Positions 9,565-35,305 of a stretch of 53,824 nt of DNA are shown here, piece by piece (within the stretch, counting starts at the first letter, position 1; every line of letters begins with the position of its first letter). The stretch covers positions 1-53,824 of the forward strand of contig JAFTVW010000025.1 in assembly GCA_017465605.1 (NCBI GenBank), read 5' to 3'. Origin of the DNA: Alistipes sp. (GTDB taxonomy: Bacteria > Bacteroidota > Bacteroidia > Bacteroidales > Rikenellaceae). The position numbers and the translations under genes were made by a program. The notes beneath the pieces were generated by a model, which worked only from the letters and a program-made list of their open reading frames with translations, searched no databases and had not been told where the DNA came from.

Positions 9565-9971
9565 GTATATAGGGCAAAGGGAGATGCGGGAGAAGAATTC
9601 AAAATTCAAAATTCAAGATTCAAAATTGCCTGACGGGCGGGAATATAAAATAAACACGTCATTCTGACATTTGTGTATTGGAGAGGGCCTGTGATGCCAC
9701 TATCTTCTATACAAAATGTAAGAAGGTTGCAATTAAGGTGAGAGCAGAGTGTGTTTACACACCTTGCAGAACCGTAGCAACCAAAAGCCGCAAAGCGGAT
9801 TAATCTACCTTATAGAAAACAACATTACCAAGAATAACCTTTGCGGCAAAGGCACACTCCCTCCCCTTCGGGTACTCCCTCTAACTTCGAGGGAGAGTTT
9901 TTGTTGTCGCGCAGCAAAGCGGTAAATAAAAGGCAGATATTAAAGAGCATATAAGCCACAAATAAAGGCAA
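9565..9971. other. Repeat-rich spacer between convergent genes
   Basis: No gene. It contains AATTTTG-type heptamers in reverse orientation (9597-9628), a GCCTGACGGGCGGG block (9628-9641) that recurs near 34803, one copy of the palindromic repeat family (9657-9730), and small hairpins, for example CTCCCTC/GAGGGAG around 9876-9896. Confidence 0.7.
9657..9730 (+). repeat. Palindromic intergenic repeat, copy 1
   Basis: Begins CGTCATTCT. Left arm ACATTTGTGTAT, about 30-base loop starting TGGAGAG, right arm ATACAAAATGT, then AAGAAGG. Boundary sequences match five other copies in the window, while the stem sequence differs. The right flank is more degenerate than in other copies. Confidence 0.6.
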
Positions 9972-29922: not shown

Positions 29923-30124
29923 CGTTATTACTATCAAACACAACAAACTAACTATCTGATTGTTAAATATATAAGGGGGGGGGTACGCTACGACATTGGC
30001 CGTACGCCAATGCGTACACATCGAATTGTCGAGCATTTCCACACGCAACTCTCCGCAAGATATTTACTTTACAGCGCAACATATTTTTGATTTTGCGATG
30101 ATTAACCACGACTCTGTTGTTCTA

Positions 30125-30154
30125 CAAAAGTAATGAAATAATCCAAAATATCAA
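30125..30154 (-). promoter_or_regulatory. Promoter of the peptide/fimbrillin unit
   Basis: Minus strand TTG (30154-30152), 19 bases, TACTTTTG (30132-30125). Leader of about 275 bases to the peptide start. Confidence 0.65.
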
Positions 30155-30190
30155 AAAAAAAAAAGATTTTGAAATTCAAAATTAAATATG

Positions 30191-30271
30191 CGTCATTCTA
30201 TATTTTCGCACCAACGACCAGCGGTGATAATACAATGTCCTATGCGAAAATGTAAGAATCAACCGCTTATT
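30191..30271 (+). repeat. Palindromic intergenic repeat, copy 2
   Basis: CGTCATTCT, arm ATATTTTCGCA, loop with CGGTGATA, arm ATGCGAAAATGT, then AAGAATCAACCGCTTATT. Faces copy 3 across about 64 bases. Confidence 0.7.
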
Positions 30272-30334
30272 AAAAAGCTTACTGTGAACGATTCCTTGTC
30301 TCAAATTCTGCTCTTTGCGAGGTACTTTTCCCAA

Positions 30335-30410
30335 AGGTAGATTCCTACATTTTTATATACTTGCTTAGTCGTTCTAATTACCCAAACCAATATAAAAATG
30401 AGGAATGACT
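30335..30410 (-). repeat. Palindromic intergenic repeat, copy 3 (inverted)
   Basis: Read on the minus strand: GTCATTCC, arm CATTTTTATAT, loop, arm ATATAAAAATG, then TAGGAATCTACC. With copy 2 it makes a composite of about 220 bases bounded by GTCATTC...GGAATGAC. Confidence 0.7.
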
Positions 30411-30469
30411 AATATATTTTCATCTCTCATCTCTGAACTGAGTGGGCAAGGCAGATGTATTTATAAACA

Positions 30470-30499
30470 AAAAAGCGGGACCCCAAAAGGAATCCCGCT
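30470..30499 (-). terminator. Terminator of rplU-rpmA
   Basis: AGCGGGA (30474-30480) with TCCCGCT (30493-30499); leftward it continues TTTTTTG. Confidence 0.85.
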
Positions 30500-30520
30500 G
30501 TGTGCTTTACGATGCAAAAA

Positions 30521-30781
30521 CTACTCTGCAAGAGGAGTTACGCTAACGTATGACTTGCCAGACGACTTCTTGCAGAACTCAACTGTACCGTCAACCAATG
30601 CAAAAAGAGTGTGGTCCTTACCCATACCCACGTTGTTACCGGGGTTGTGTACTGTACCTCTCTGACGAACGATGATGTTGCCAGCCTTAGCGAACTGACC
30701 ACCGAAAAGCTTTACTCCGAGTCGCTTGCTCTCTGACTCACGGCCGTTCTTTGAACTACCTACTCCTTTTTTGTGTGCCAT
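30521..30781 (-). CDS. rpmA: 50S ribosomal protein L27
   Basis: 86 residues starting [20 protein letters not shown], with the family core [23 protein letters not shown] and [18 protein letters not shown]27's N-terminus reaches the peptidyl-transferase centre. It begins directly AHKKG, without the cleaved N-terminal extension found in Firmicutes. Second gene after rplU, 18 bases apart, ending at the terminator. Confidence 0.98.
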
Positions 30782-30799
30782 TTTCTACTAATTTTTAGG

Positions 30800-31111
30800 T
30801 TATGCAACAATATCCTCTACGAGAACCTGAGTAAGGTACTGGCGGTGGCCATTACACTTCTGGTAACCGGTTCTACGCTTCTTCTTGAACACCAAGACCT
30901 TGTCGTCTTTGAGGTGCTTCAAGATTTTACACTTAACTGAGGCGCCTTCTACTGCAGGTGCACCTACCTTAACCTGACCGTCGTTGTCTACAAGCAGGAC
31001 TTTGTCGAAGCTCACTGACGACTCTACGTCGCCTTGAAGACGGTGAACATAGAGCTTACGACCCTTCTCAGCCTTAAACTGCTGGCCTGCGATTTCTACT
31101 ATAACGTACAT
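30800..31111 (-). CDS. rplU: 50S ribosomal protein L21
   Basis: 103 residues from ATG 31111 ([20 protein letters not shown]), with [21 protein letters not shown] and the C-terminal [14 protein letters not shown]. An in-frame extension to 31345 is rejected because the -7 box (31151-31158) falls inside it and 103 residues is the family length. Binds 23S rRNA. First gene of rplU-rpmA. Confidence 0.98.
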
Positions 31112-31150
31112 TTCTTTAATAAAATATAAGTTTTGCCGTAATTCGGCCTG

Positions 31151-31179
31151 CAAATATACAAAAATTTTTCCGCTCGCAA
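31151..31179 (-). promoter_or_regulatory. Promoter of rplU-rpmA
   Basis: Minus strand TTG (31179-31177), 18 bases, TATATTTG (31158-31151). Leader about 33 bases. Confidence 0.7.
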
Positions 31180-31265
31180 CACCTTTGGCCATATTTTTTT
31201 CACAATCACTCATTTGGCACACTATTGGATTGGGTAAGCAACATCTTTTTCGCAATATAAAGAGT

Positions 31266-31673
31266 ATGAAAAGTGTAATTATATACTCAACACAAAATGC
31301 TATTGGGGTGCTGGTAGAGGCTATGATTTCGGGGAGTGATGCCAATTTCGAGACCTTTCAGGCGGGCTCGACAAGGGAGCTGCTCTCGATGGCAAGAGTG
31401 CTACGACCACGATTGATAATACTGCTCGACATAGTGCCACTCTTAGATGGTTGCGATATTGTGGCTCGCCTGCACGAGATTGAGAGCAATGGACGAGGGC
31501 GATTATCACGCTCACGCGCCACGATATATGTTATAACTTGGCAGCAGAGCGAACACACCGTACTCTCGCTTCTGGAATCGGGCATCGACCAATATCTCAC
31601 ATTCCCGATTTGCATTGAGCGTCTGCGCCACAAGGTCAGCCAGCAGATGACAAGCAATACCCTCCGACAATAA
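31266..31673 (+). CDS. Receiver-like (pseudo-response-regulator) protein
   Basis: 135 residues from ATG 31266; an upstream TTG start (31185) lies in the rplU promoter region and is rejected. The pattern of strands and helices fits a CheY-like receiver: [23 protein letters not shown] matches the phospho-acceptor region with Asp55, and YVITW-x(14)[19 protein letters not shown] matches the end. However the N-terminal acidic pair is absent (VIIYSTQ) and the conserved Lys is Phe113 (LTFP instead of LTKP). Phosphorylation by the normal route is therefore doubtful. No output domain. First of three closely packed genes (11-base gap to the next). Confidence 0.78.
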
Positions 31674-31684
31674 ATTTGCAGACG

Positions 31685-32629
31685 ATGAATATCTCGGGTA
31701 TAATATACATATATATAATAGTATCGTTGCTGATTGCTGCGGCCTACTCTATTGCTACGATTTTGGCTCTACACGCCCGCCGCAAGAAGCAACACAGCAA
31801 ACAACTCTCGAACTCGTATCTGCAACAAATAATTGCAATGCAGGGAAGAGAAGGAGAAGTCAATGCACGCTCCACATCGGAGCGTATGGCTCTTGCGCAG
31901 GCCTTACACTCAATTATGAGTTACACCTACTCCACCCCAACCGAAAACACAAAGACTATTGCTCGCAACAACAGATTAGAAGAGTTGATACTAAACAAGT
32001 TGCGCCACGCCAACAACGAGGAGAAGGCACGACTGCTCAACATTTTGAGCTCTATTCCAATCAGCGCACACGCCACCGACATAATATCAAAATACCTACA
32101 CTCCGCCAATCGTCACATTCGCATAGCCGCCATAATCGCGACGATCGCGGCATCGCCGACAAAAGCCATACGGACAATCGCCGATTTGCCATTCTCGTTG
32201 AAGCCTTACGACACTTCGCGGATAATTGCATTGCTGCGTCGTGGGTTGCTACCGATAGCCTACGAGCCGCTCTTAATGAGCGACAACCACAATTTGCTAA
32301 TGCTCGGGATTGCCATCACTCACAATTTCGGCATCGACATTGCCGACAAACACCTTCACAACATAATCCTGCGGCAACCAAATCGGCAAATTGTAAGAGA
32401 GGCCATATACACGCTTGCCACACTTGGCCGACCATTGGGGCGCCACCACATAAGGGAACAACTTGCAGCAATGTCACCCAACATTCGCAGAGAACTTTGC
32501 CATCATCTAAGTTGCGAGGGTTATTCACTTTCGGCTCTGAGTGTGATATTCTCCGAGAGCGAAATTATACACGCGGAGCCTCTGATAAACTCATATAAAC
32601 GTAGTCTGATATGTACGCAATCGAACTGA
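31685..32629 (+). CDS. Membrane-anchored HEAT-like helical repeat protein
   Basis: 314 residues from ATG 31685. One N-terminal membrane helix (about 4-27, IIYIYIIVSLLIAAAYSIATILA), a basic polar stretch (HARRKKQHSKQ), then helix pairs of HEAT type: KARLLNILSSIPISAHATDI, HIRIAAIIATIAA, SRIIALLRRGLLPIAYEPLL, QIVREAIYTLATLGRPLGRHHI, NIRRELCHHLS. HEAT repeats are protein-protein scaffolds, so this protein likely holds its partners at the inner membrane. It overlaps the next gene by 19 bases. I know of gene sets with a receiver, a HEAT protein and a glycosyltransferase in Bacteroidetes exopolysaccharide loci; the match is by layout only. Confidence 0.75.
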   Translation: MNISGIIYIYIIVSLLIAAAYSIATILALHARRKKQHSKQLSNSYLQQIIAMQGREGEVNARSTSERMALAQALHSIMSYTYSTPTENTKTIARNNRLEELILNKLRHANNEEKARLLNILSSIPISAHATDIISKYLHSANRHIRIAAIIATIAASPTKAIRTIADLPFSLKPYDTSRIIALLRRGLLPIAYEPLLMSDNHNLLMLGIAITHNFGIDIADKHLHNIILRQPNRQIVREAIYTLATLGRPLGRHHIREQLAAMSPNIRRELCHHLSCEGYSLSALSVIFSESEIIHAEPLINSYKRSLICTQSN

Positions 32630-33657
32630 TAATGACAGTATTGCTGGCGGCGGCAGCAACAATAATCTTGTTGGAGGTAATCTACACCTCACGCATTATC
32701 GCAGCAGAGCGTCGGCAGCAACTACTTGCCGACCGAAGTATTGGTTGCCACTCTTCGCTGGGGTGGGTGGGGTGTTCTGTGATATGCCATAGAGCAACCG
32801 ATGTAGCCCAAATCGAAAATCTGCTTCGCACAGAATACGACAGATATGAGGTGATAGCGATAATAGATGCAGAGGTTTATGGTGAACTTTTTTCGGAAAT
32901 TGTGTCACGATATCGACTTCTTGAATTGGATAGGCCAAAGCATCAATCCGAAACCGATGCAAAGATTCGGAGGCTTTATCGCTCGGGGCAACGACGTTAC
33001 CGGCATCTTGTGTTGCTCGACATTCAGCAGAATGTGGAAATGTACGATGCTATGAACTGCGCATTGGAGGTTACATCGTATAATTATGTGATACCGATAA
33101 AAGGCGGTTATTATCTGCGACAACACGCAATCGAGAGCATAGCAATTCTACTCTCCGATGACTCGGAGCAGAATATCGAGCTGCTGGAATCGCTCGGCAA
33201 TCCTTCGTGTCAGATTTTTCGTTATGATACGGTGATAGCAAGAGGGGGATTTTCCCCAAATTTGCCAGATAAGATTACACCTCGCAACACGATATACACC
33301 TACGAGACATATATTTGCAAATCTCGCGAGAGGCAATCACCCAAACCAAGCATAATAAAAGTCTCGGTGCAATTAGGCTTGATTGTCGCGATAGGACTTG
33401 CGGCAACTCTCATTGCACGCGAAGGAGATATTTTCGGCATAGGAATTTCATCAGGGAGTGAGCCTGCAATCAATACAGAAGCGGCCAAATATATTTTGAT
33501 AATATGTGCCATCGCCACCATAGCTATCACCTTGCGGGCCATTGCAACATATCAAATCGTGGCAAGTGGAACAGCAAAATGTGCCGTTAGGTCTATGTTA
33601 TGTTATTTTCGTCGCTTGACAGCATTTTTTTTGCGTCGAAAATTTATTGTTTCATAA
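32611..33657 (+). CDS. GT2-like membrane protein lacking the usual catalytic acids
   Basis: 348 residues from ATG 32611; a second ATG at 32632, two bases after the HEAT gene stop, is equally plausible. Layout: N-terminal membrane helix (about 8-27), a soluble domain (about 50-240), two C-terminal helices (about 248-268 and 288-310), the plan of membrane GT2 synthases. The domain reads GCSVICHR...IENLLRTEYDRYEVIAIID (like SVIIP...YEVIVVDD) and YNYVIPIKGGYYLRQHAIESI (like the DAD strand). The acids expected for nucleotide-sugar binding are replaced (IDAEV for VDDGS; IKGG for a DxD motif), so it may be inactive or act differently. Last gene of the cassette; 44 bases before cysQ. Confidence 0.65.
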   Translation: MYAIELIMTVLLAAAATIILLEVIYTSRIIAAERRQQLLADRSIGCHSSLGWVGCSVICHRATDVAQIENLLRTEYDRYEVIAIIDAEVYGELFSEIVSRYRLLELDRPKHQSETDAKIRRLYRSGQRRYRHLVLLDIQQNVEMYDAMNCALEVTSYNYVIPIKGGYYLRQHAIESIAILLSDDSEQNIELLESLGNPSCQIFRYDTVIARGGFSPNLPDKITPRNTIYTYETYICKSRERQSPKPSIIKVSVQLGLIVAIGLAATLIAREGDIFGIGISSGSEPAINTEAAKYILIICAIATIAITLRAIATYQIVASGTAKCAVRSMLCYFRRLTAFFLRRKFIVS

Positions 33658-33701
33658 ATTATGACTAACTTTACGAAAGTAATACAAAAAACCACAACCT
33701 G

Positions 33702-34559
33702 ATGATGGCAGATACTCAAATAAAGCAACACATATTGGAGCATATACTACCACAATGTTTCAATGCCGCAGTAAAAGCTGGTGCGGCAATAATGAAGATT
33801 TACAAAAACCAAGACGACTATGATATCTCGCTCAAAAGCGATATGACCCCAATCACAGTGGCCGACCGCGTGGCACACAATACAATCAAAGAGCATCTCG
33901 GTACGACCCGTATCCCTGTGCTTAGCGAGGAAGGTCGTGAGATGCGTTATGACGAGCGTCGCAATTGGGAGCTATTTCTATTGGTTGACCCTCTGGACGG
34001 CACAAAGGAGTTTATCAAGGGTAACAACGAGTTTACGGTAAATATCGCACTGCTCTACAATAATGAGTGTGTGGCATCGGTGTTGTATGTACCCTACCAC
34101 TGCAAGATGTATGTGGCGGTGAAAGAATTTGGAGCATTCCTGATTCGTGATATTGTACCACAGGAGAGCCCCAACTATCAAGGCGAACAAATCTCTCAAA
34201 TGATGGAGCGATTGCCTTTGGAGTCGGCTCGTCACGAGGGTTTCCGCGTAGCGGTGTCGCGTTCACATCAAACTCCCGAAACCCACCAACGCATTGAGCA
34301 GATGCGCCAGCAACACCCCGACTTGGAGATTGTCGAGCAAGGCAGTTCATACAAGTTCTGTTTGTTGGCCGAGGGTAGCATTGACTATTATGTGCGTACG
34401 ACCAATACCTACGAGTGGGACACTGCCGCTGGCGAGTTAATTTTGGCCGAGGCAGGAGGCTCAACACTCTCATACCCCGAAGGCGAGCCATTGCGATACA
34501 ATAAATCAGATTTGAAGAATCCTTGGTTTGAGGCCCGAAGCCACAATTGCAAAGAGTAA
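33702..34559 (+). CDS. cysQ: 3'(2'),5'-bisphosphate nucleotidase CysQ
   Basis: 285 residues of the inositol-monophosphatase superfamily. Metal site: Glu76-Glu77 (SEEG), the DPLDGT motif (96-101, in VDPLDGTKEFIKGN) and the C-terminal WDTAAGELILAEAGG. The TKEFI extension after the motif is characteristic of CysQ. It removes phosphate from 3'-phosphoadenosine 5'-phosphate left by sulfate assimilation or sulfotransfer. No sulfate genes are adjacent. Starts MMAD; either Met could be first. A -7-like TAACTTTA at 33666-33673 is one base off consensus. Followed 41 bases later by a short peptide gene. Confidence 0.93.
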   Translation: MMADTQIKQHILEHILPQCFNAAVKAGAAIMKIYKNQDDYDISLKSDMTPITVADRVAHNTIKEHLGTTRIPVLSEEGREMRYDERRNWELFLLVDPLDGTKEFIKGNNEFTVNIALLYNNECVASVLYVPYHCKMYVAVKEFGAFLIRDIVPQESPNYQGEQISQMMERLPLESARHEGFRVAVSRSHQTPETHQRIEQMRQQHPDLEIVEQGSSYKFCLLAEGSIDYYVRTTNTYEWDTAAGELILAEAGGSTLSYPEGEPLRYNKSDLKNPWFEARSHNCKE

Positions 34560-34600
34560 AAGGAAAAGATACATTTACTAACAATAAATACATTACTACT

Positions 34601-34687
34601 ATGAAACGCGAGGAAAGAAAGATTTATTCTGCACCCGAAGTCGAGATAATCGAGGTAGCAGTAGAGAAAGGTTTTGCGGGCTCTTAA
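34601..34687 (+). CDS. Second short peptide of the APE(I/V)E(V/I)IEV type
   Basis: 28 residues: MKREERKIYSAPEVE followed by IIEVAVEKGFAGS and TAA. Closely related to the 38-residue product at 29727-29843 but ends right after GFAGS, without the Gly/Asn/Trp tail. An adenine-rich stretch precedes the ATG. A terminator follows at 34717-34755, and cysQ ends 41 bases upstream, so the two may share a transcript. Either a naturally short form or a truncated copy. Function unknown. Confidence 0.6.
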   Translation: MKREERKIYSAPEVEIIEVAVEKGFAGS

Positions 34688-34716
34688 TTTACAAAAAAAG
34701 ACGAGTACTACAAATT

Positions 34717-34755
34717 AGGGGTGTTTACAGTGTTGTAACACCCCTTATTATTTGC
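34717..34755 (+). terminator. Terminator after the short peptide gene
   Basis: AGGGGTGTT (34717-34725) with AACACCCCT (34737-34745), then TATTATTT. Confidence 0.8.
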
Positions 34756-34901
34756 ACTAGATTGCAAAAAAATTCTTTATTGAGAGAGAAATTCAAAATT
34801 GGCCTGACGGGCGGGTATAAAAAATATAAACCGCCATTCTAATAGTATGCCTCGCCCCAAAGAATGACTTTGTAGCAAAGACTGTTCTTTGGAAGGCAGT
34901 A
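34756..34901. other. Left part of the 34.8-35.3 kb repeat cluster
   Basis: No gene. ATTCAAAATTG followed by GCCTGACGGGCGGG (about 34790-34815) repeats the block at 9618-9641. Then CGCCATTCT (34831-34839), a degenerate form of the CGTCATTC end, and a hairpin CCAAAGAA/TTCTTTGG (34857-34891). Confidence 0.6.
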
Positions 34902-34983
34902 AATAAGCGGTAGATTTCAACATTTTCGCATAGATGCTTATGCTATCACCGAGCGTCGGCTGATGCGAAAATATGAAATGACG
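34902..34983 (-). repeat. Palindromic intergenic repeat, copy 4
   Basis: Minus-strand reading: CGTCATTTC, arm ATATTTTCGCAT, loop with CGGTGATA, arm ATGCGAAAATG, then TTGAAATCTACCGCTTATT. Closest to copy 2. Confidence 0.7.
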
Positions 34984-35007
34984 TATATATAAATAATAAA
35001 ATAAAAA

Positions 35008-35082
35008 CGTCATTCCACATTTCTTCATTGGAGAGAGTCGGAGAAGATAATTAGTAGCTATGAAGAAATGTAGGAATCTACC
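35008..35082 (+). repeat. Palindromic intergenic repeat, copy 5
   Basis: CGTCATTCC, arm ACATTTCTTCAT, loop starting TGGAGAG (as in copy 1), arm ATGAAGAAATGT, then AGGAATCTACC. The stem is a perfect 12 bases. Confidence 0.7.
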
Positions 35083-35145
35083 TTATAATACACCACGTCC
35101 CAAAGAATGACTTGGCAGCAAGAGGTTGCTCTTTGGAAGGTCTAT

Positions 35146-35227
35146 AACAAGCGGTTGATTCCTATATTTTTACATATGCCCTAATATTTTCACCGAAGGT
35201 TGATTGATGTAAAAATAAGGAATGACG
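35146..35227 (-). repeat. Palindromic intergenic repeat, copy 6 (inverted)
   Basis: Minus-strand reading: CGTCATTCC, arm TATTTTTACAT, loop with CGGTGA, arm ATGTAAAAATA, then TAGGAATCAACCGCTTGTT. Faces copy 5 across a 63-base segment that holds the hairpin CCAAAGA/TCTTTGG (35099-35135). Confidence 0.7.
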
Positions 35228-35239
35228 GACGTACATAAG

Positions 35240-35270
35240 TATCCTGTCTAACTCAATGTTAGACAGGATA
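35240..35270. terminator. Perfect 13-base inverted repeat, terminator-like
   Basis: TATCCTGTCTAAC (35240-35252) with GTTAGACAGGATA (35258-35270). No gene runs into it from the left on the plus strand after 34687. The T-run is weak, so a role other than termination is possible. Confidence 0.5.
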
Positions 35271-35277
35271 TTTAGTT

Positions 35278-35305
35278 AATTTTGAATTTTGAATTTTGAA
35301 TTTTG
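35278..35305 (+). repeat. Four tandem copies of AATTTTG
   Basis: Perfect heptamer repeats. The third copy supplies the -33 TTG of the promoter for the dipeptidyl peptidase gene. The reverse form occurs at 9597-9628 and once at 34789. Confidence 0.8.

Follow-up and report, generated by a model that had tools for sequence, protein, structure and literature searches.

What disperses a family of intergenic palindromes whose stems differ from copy to copy, and what keeps those stems paired? The question is raised by a 53,824-nt stretch of an Alistipes sp. genome (contig JAFTVW010000025.1 of assembly GCA_017465605.1; the whole stretch is called the window here, and is contig C21 of the source genome, G000, in our cluster labels). 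A first-pass annotation had noted six palindromic repeats there and had read them as a structured RNA or as a mobile unit akin to repetitive extragenic palindromes (REPs) or miniature inverted-repeat transposable elements (MITEs). We find that the real unit is an inverted dimer of two hairpins, ~220 bp or more with inserts, with CGTC tags facing outward and a palindromic spacer within. We are confident that the hairpins are enlarged relatives of the CGTC-tagged REPs (CGTC-REPs), arranged as heterodimers, and we consider it probable that they form a non-autonomous mobile unit. The repeat is of a known kind, though unusual in being enlarged and well structured, and what makes it valuable is the question of which agent moves CGTC-REPs.

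Hairpins and dimers in the window and its genome

All six reported stretches are present in the window, and five of them have a good stem: the outer block is of the ATTCY/RGAAT type, one or two bases stay unpaired, an inner block of 11 bp follows, and the loop measures 30-32 nt. The sixth copy (9657) has decayed. Complementarity between its arms, CATTTGTGTAT and ATACAAAATG, is incomplete, and the GGAATC end is missing owing to a 79-bp insert (9725-9803) that interrupts the tail. The copy at 30336-30410 starts with AGTC, not CGTC. A covariance model built from 15 copies recovers all six stretches, five at E values of 7.8e-15 to 1.8e-11 and the 9657-9730 copy at 8e-05; since the other four were among the training copies, those at 34909 and 9657 are the sole independent matches in the window. 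The exact two-block pattern matches twice in the window and not once in 100 shuffles.

Nor do the copies stand as separate units. Four of them pair up (30191 with 30336 and 35008 with 35153) as the halves of two inverted dimers of 219-220 bp with a spacer of ~70 bp, and the copy at 34909 is half of a third. In both complete dimers of the window the two stems belong to different types, A (classes TTACAT, TCGCA and CGAGG) and B (the remaining classes). The features are listed below, with reference to two relatives, Rikenellaceae bacterium SIG166 and Alistipes sp. RGIG1682, the latter of the same genus as the source genome.

9657..9724, plus strand: decayed hairpin of the TTGTA class; its counterpart in SIG166 (L158_9490) is likewise decayed
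9725..9803, plus strand: 79-bp insert splitting the hairpin tail after GAA
9804..9809, plus strand: remaining tail TCTACC, followed by spacer
30191..30410: complete heterodimer, in which a spacer separates an A-type hairpin from an inverted B-type one and the tags face outward; the orthologous intergenic region is hairpin-free in SIG166 and RGIG1682
30191..30264, plus strand: A-type hairpin, stem class TTTTCGCA/TGCGAAAA
30265..30335: spacer separating the hairpins
30336..30410, minus strand: B-type hairpin, stem class TTTTTATAT/ATATAAAAA, tag AGTC
34832..34983: remains of a third dimer, comprising a possible end remnant (CGCCATTC at 34832-34839), spacer and one hairpin, the left hairpin having been lost
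34909..34983, minus strand: A-type hairpin, stem class TTTTCGCAT/ATGCGAAAA
34984..35007: 24-bp linker, rich in AT, joining neighbouring units; similar unit distances occur on contigs C37, C38 and C61
35008..35227: complete heterodimer, in which a palindromic spacer separates a B-type hairpin from an inverted A-type one
35008..35082, plus strand: B-type hairpin, stem class TTTCTTCAT/ATGAAGAAA
35083..35152: spacer bearing its own, clear palindrome (CCCAAAGA...TCTTTGG)
35153..35227, minus strand: A-type hairpin, stem class TTTTTACAT/ATGTAAAAA

The genome search that the first-pass annotation had proposed found at least 92 matching hairpins in 48 clusters in the 2.3-Mb source genome (the best 150 of 1242 candidates were scored, giving 100 matches at E ≤1 and 92 after removal of opposite-strand duplicates). 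Contig ends are no more than 600 bases away from 24 of the 48 clusters, where 1.6 were expected; the assembly thus appears to break at hairpin clusters, and the copy number is probably a lower bound. Genes stand to either side of 24 clusters, and 22 of these overlap no open reading frame of at least 100 aa.

A profile search over 206,511 bases of source-genome stretches yielded 97 hairpins, a count that takes in partial copies, and 36 inverted dimers. Nine of the 36 are near 220 bp, and 23 measure 255-375 bp owing to inserts in the spacer or tail. Both stems could be classified in 28 dimers, none of which has equal stems (4.9 expected at random pairing, P 0.0045, a value that overstates independence because dimers have common ancestors). 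A-type stems are paired with B-type stems in 26 of these 28; 14.2 were expected, and the maximum of 10000 shuffles was 24. Eight adjacent hairpins within 150 bases of each other have other orientations.

Among 89 near-full hairpins of the source genome the first bases are CGTC in 80, TGTC in three, AGTC in three, CATC in two and CGCC in one; the opening stem pairs are A-T in 99 of 113 and T-A in all of 115 distinct rows. Over 99 distinct copies the loop is 30-32 nt, and the tail reads TCTACC in 52, TCAACC in 24, TCCACC in three and TCGACC in two, with 18 copies lacking an ACC end.

Two variant forms were also observed. Six hairpins of the CGAGG form (e.g. G000:C16:10343-10436 and G000:C6:25-118) are 94 nt long, with CGAGGTCTCGCGACC... 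replacing the inner stem and loop and both ends kept. A 58-bp unit at G000:C53:46153-46210 seemingly fuses the outer halves of two unlike hairpins and is likely an internal deletion of a dimer.

Relatives and the spread of the unit

The covariance model identified 31 hairpins in SIG166 and three in RGIG1682. A pattern scan of the genome_contigs collection returned 12 stretches, 10 from SIG166, one from RGIG1682 and one from a Thermoplasmata sequence (L100), which gained no support from the hairpin profile and was taken as chance. The neighbourhood of the window is syntenic with both relatives, and both mid-window sites are hairpin-free in both. The gap beside the L27 gene measures 534 bp in the source genome vs about 250 bp in SIG166 and RGIG1682; the second gap measures 718 bp vs 120 bp in SIG166 and, with slightly different flank ends, 783 vs 233 bp in RGIG1682. 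Beside the L21-L27 genes (window 29985-30519 compared with L165 and L166) the intergenic sequences of SIG166 and RGIG1682 are nearly identical to each other and unrelated to that of the source genome; our guess, from a comparison at this region alone, is that the region was exchanged.

The site comparison with SIG166 covers 12 of the 48 clusters, those with orthologous flanks, and common sites are over-represented in it because the SIG166 stretches were mostly chosen around that genome's own hairpins. The 12 divide evenly:

Vacant in SIG166: C15 2293, C21 30191, C21 34909, C6 16132
Same content in SIG166: C8 3460, C33, C35, C21 9657
Different content in SIG166: C27, C42, C43, C44

The look for empty sites that had been advised was thus rewarded with four vacant clusters; clean junctions were not obtained, the intergenic DNA being too diverged.

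Farther afield, a DNA probe run across 41 relatives matched the source genome and one further stretch of 28 bases, and model R1 matched one of 393 genomes of the order, the source genome itself, under stricter filters and with the best 12 candidates in each. Absence of the long form elsewhere is unproved by these results, because the DNA probe missed RGIG1682 despite its three long copies. Spread by phage was checked with one strict pattern, which had no match in viral contigs.

Shorter hairpins with the same tag occur in the genus. The pattern CGTCATTCC(14-44)GGAATC matches in 26 of 81 genus genomes, the source genome included. The two richest genomes have 49 and 39 matches and 55 genomes have none; run backwards as a control it gave seven matches in total over the 81. 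Among the matches listed, the short hairpins are 33-44 nt overall and have many different stems, and one lies in the source genome. At 12 of 14 sites inspected in RGIG1682 they form unlike inverted dimers of 101-119 bp, with stems unrelated to the long form. One short copy in RGIG1682 has the long-form stem CATTTTTG/CAAAAATG with an 8-nt loop, and in SIG166 a short CGTC hairpin also partners a long one. Run on stretches of the three genomes, a loose short-hairpin script counted none in the source genome, eight in SIG166 (five of them one repeated form) and two in RGIG1682, vs 0-3, 0-3 and 0-1 in shuffles. The high copy number, the hairpin-free orthologous sites in relatives and the short CGTC-tagged hairpins of similar architecture in the genus together support the suggestion that the repeats are mobile and REP- or MITE-like.

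These data also bear on the best-surviving alternative, that the unit is a MITE of a cut-and-paste DNA transposon. In that case CGTCATTCC...GGAATGACG would serve as terminal inverted repeats, to which a DDE transposase would bind in double-stranded form, and the hairpins inside would be incidental. A 220-bp unit with inverted ends and a recurrent size (the nine dimers near 220 bp) would suit such an element, as would the vacant sites in a relative. A MITE, however, does not predict that each half should fold into its own hairpin, whose arms covary, nor does it predict unlike halves or short hairpins with the same tag elsewhere in the genus. Inspection by eye of 34 dimer flanks, which is not a systematic test, showed no evident target duplication; the search for a parent covered the Y1, RAYT and IS110 families. 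We regard this explanation as unlikely.

Pairing of the stems

The proposal that pairing is kept while the arms change is supported. Among the 15 chosen copies, 99.2% of cells are paired and seven of 16 pairs have changed on both sides. In 115 distinct copies from the source genome, SIG166 and RGIG1682, 97.5% of cells are paired vs 89.3% when shuffled, nine of 16 pairs have changed on both sides, and the cells so changed number 189 vs 50.9 in shuffles; these counts tally cells, not events, and ignore kinship. That alignment was fitted to the model, and further pair types are not raised in it (16 vs 15.7). When whole arms were shuffled among 98 copies, inner-stem pairing fell from 96.2% to 80.2%, and the highest of 1000 shuffles reached 83.0%. 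About six stem classes (TTACAT, TCGCA, CTTCAT, TTGTA, TTATAT and CTTTAT) account for the changes, so the covariation amounts to few events counted many times.

Strong covariation of this kind, together with the great stability of the fold found for one 220-nt unit (z -6.4), could be explained if the hairpins acted in transcripts, for example as stabilisers of 3′ ends or as processing sites, with pairing kept by selection on RNA. The 24 clusters flanked by genes are also slightly biased towards gene ends (8 convergent, 12 tandem and 4 divergent, vs 13, 34 and 17 for all gaps of more than 100 bases in those stretches). The departures from Watson-Crick pairing offer no specific support for this idea. 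Read on the CGTC strand, T-G occurs 31 times and C-A 15 times; 20 of the T-G departures fall at one pair, mostly in one class, and once that pair is set aside the excess is gone (11 vs 15). In addition, the two hairpins of a dimer lie on opposite strands, the orthologous genes of the relatives do without hairpins, and the window has no Rfam match at the gathering score. The departures and the opposite-strand hairpins fit a constraint at the DNA level at least as well as one on RNA, and a structured RNA, the other possibility first raised for these repeats, seems improbable.

The copying of one arm from the other by template switching at an imperfect palindrome, which would keep stems paired free of selection and might account for whole stems that differ between classes while loop parts stay alike, is very improbable. 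When the 75 copy pairs whose loops agree at 90% or more are compared, the stem is identical in 63, and in the other 12 the difference is confined to a single arm (a small sample, tracing to five variant copies, of which the one at C25 22908 combines the 5′ arm of one class with the 3′ arm of another); no pair differs in both arms. Uncorrected C-A and T-G departures also persist. The pattern argues for selection that has maintained pairing over the long term, accompanied by recent decay and a degree of recombination among copies.

Several smaller elements accompany the hairpins. The 79-bp insert is found after GAA in 12 hairpins of the source genome, of which five belong to the TTGTA class (the decayed window copy counted), four to TTACAT, two to CTTCAT (one a variant) and one to TCGCA. 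It is palindromic (GGTTGC...GATTAA) and keeps to the same tail position across the four classes here, as well as in SIG166 (L108 and L116), as if it were a second element targeting the REP, or a module passed on by recombination. At 35236-35274 of the window a nearly perfect hairpin, with arms 94% complementary, adjoins the dimer, and closely related hairpins lie next to copies on C1, C25, C27, C30, C33 and C43. Runs of AATTCAAAATTC units at 9596-9630, 34789-34820 and 35278-35305 adjoin the hairpin clusters, and similar runs lie beside other copies; two of the AATTCAAAATTC runs are followed by CCTGACGGGCGGG and an AT stretch. In SIG166 (L148, about 2500-2800) we observed a further repeat that may be a second miniature element, its ends being inverted (GCGCAATGATAAATTTTAGG...CCTAAAATTCATCGGTGCG); one of its ends also flanks hairpins of the source genome. 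Finally, a terminator-like hairpin, recognised by eye, follows the L27 gene at 30469-30499 and lies between that gene and the 30191-30410 dimer, which would place the dimer past the end of the L27 transcript.

Mobilisation and comparison with known REPs

The explanation that we favour is that of a mobile, enlarged CGTC-REP heterodimer. Such a unit would consist of an A hairpin, a palindromic spacer and a B hairpin, with CGTC tags outside and ACC tails inside. Copies would spread non-autonomously, with an enzyme provided in trans recognising their single-stranded foldbacks, and purifying selection on the foldback would keep each stem paired. Unlike A and B stems may serve to weaken the long palindrome that equal inverted hairpins would form, which can be a matter of degree only, because the 220-nt unit still folds best as one long hairpin. 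That a trans-acting enzyme recognises the single-stranded foldback is a tentative proposal, made by analogy with the GTAG-REPs, which are thought to be recognised by RAYT enzymes.

Several points weigh against this account. The lowest-energy fold just mentioned is a single long hairpin, not two separate ones, and the common ancestry of the dimers tempers the heterodimer statistics. The altered hairpin content at common sites would also fit spread by recombination between copies. Neither a target duplication nor a clean insertion junction was found, the intergenic DNA of the closest relative being too diverged. No transposase has been linked to CGTC-REPs, so processing of single strands is an analogy. 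The stem (5+11 bp) and loop (30-32 nt) go far beyond the published dimensions of CGTC-REPs, 8-9 bp and 4-5 nt (PMC3733652).

Searches for a mobilising enzyme covered Y1_Tnp, RAYT and IS110, and none was made for DDE transposases, tyrosine recombinases or other nucleases. Y1_Tnp had no match in 11 distinct genomes, and RAYT none over the cut-off in 11 distinct genomes, all of which carry CGTC hairpins; the source genome has a single RAYT match below the cut-off (E 0.0086, 16.5 bits vs a cut-off of 80) with two stops. The DEDD domain of IS110 was not found in seven genomes, four of them known carriers. With nothing over the cut-off in the tested carriers, RAYT/IS200 and IS110 were set aside as movers. 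Draft gaps might hide a mover gene in one genome, but hardly in all. Integron attC sites were likewise rejected, as the tails do not fit the consensus of the attC R boxes. In a phrase search of the literature, PMC3733652 was the sole main paper on CGTC-tagged REPs, and the search turned up no later main paper on the transposase gap. A literature search for TCATTGCGAGG gave unrelated matches only, and one for palindromic intergenic MITEs in Rikenellaceae found none.

More speculatively, the genus might harbour a RAYT-free system of REP doublets, in which CGTC hairpins expanded independently in several species as unlike A/B pairs, some with enlarged stem and loop, and are moved by an enzyme so far not tied to REPs. 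CGTC-REPs are a widespread superfamily whose mobilising enzyme is still to be found. If this proposal is true, a comparison of species with no, few and many copies could identify the enzyme and close a gap stated in 2013; it could be sought by presence and absence because short-form matches range from 0 to 49 across the genus, one species has at least 92 enlarged copies, and RAYT went undetected in 11 carriers.

The element resembles GTAG-REPs and REPINs in working as many-copy inverted hairpin pairs between genes. Read on the reverse strand, 52 of the 99 distinct copies have GGTAG before the stem and 24 have GGTTG; in contrast to GTAG-REPs, a cognate RAYT (TnpAREP) was not detected in the carriers here. 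An ATTCCC...GGGAAT block, which we take to be the consensus of dRS3 of Neisseria, occurs in three copies (C15 2569, L131 1356 and L134 1162). The dRS3 hairpin is ~20 nt, whereas the hairpins here are about 75 nt and form A/B dimers. Common to both are interleaved repeat families between genes, as in the dRS3/intergenic mosaic repeats of Neisseria, and dRS3 is equated with CGTC-1 in PMC3733652.

The closest likeness is to the CGTC-REPs as portrayed in Di Nocera 2013 (PMC3733652). These have an unpaired CGTC (or TGTC/CCTC) at one end of the palindrome, A-T pairs at stem positions one and two, a stem of 8-9 bp, a loop of 4-5 nt and an unpaired 3-nt tail, mostly CCA. Inverted dimers prevail among them, with heterodimers in some families and structured, conserved spacers; clusters are rare, being noted in Neisseriae and Wolbachia, and the want of a dedicated transposase was stated in 2013. 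Measured against that description, the present element differs in its second stem block of 11 bp, its loop of 30-32 nt instead of 4-5, its unit of at least 220 bp, the seemingly frequent grouping of neighbouring units and the 79-bp insert recurring within the tail. Because stem and loop exceed the published limits, we regard it as an enlarged relative of the CGTC-REPs and not as a standard member. A recent REP finder would pass over these hairpins, since its defaults (PMC12306157) stop at a loop of 11 nt and a palindrome of 32 nt. Element and family (PMC3733652) have in common the CGTC tag, the A-T/T-A opening pairs, the unpaired tail, stem subclasses with complementary changes, inverted (hetero)dimers, structured spacers and, as far as the three enzyme families searched here show, no dedicated transposase. 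It is also suggested in that paper that unlike partners may protect dimers from clearance as long palindromes, and the A/B rule, seen in one long-hairpin and one short-hairpin species with unrelated stems, fits that idea.

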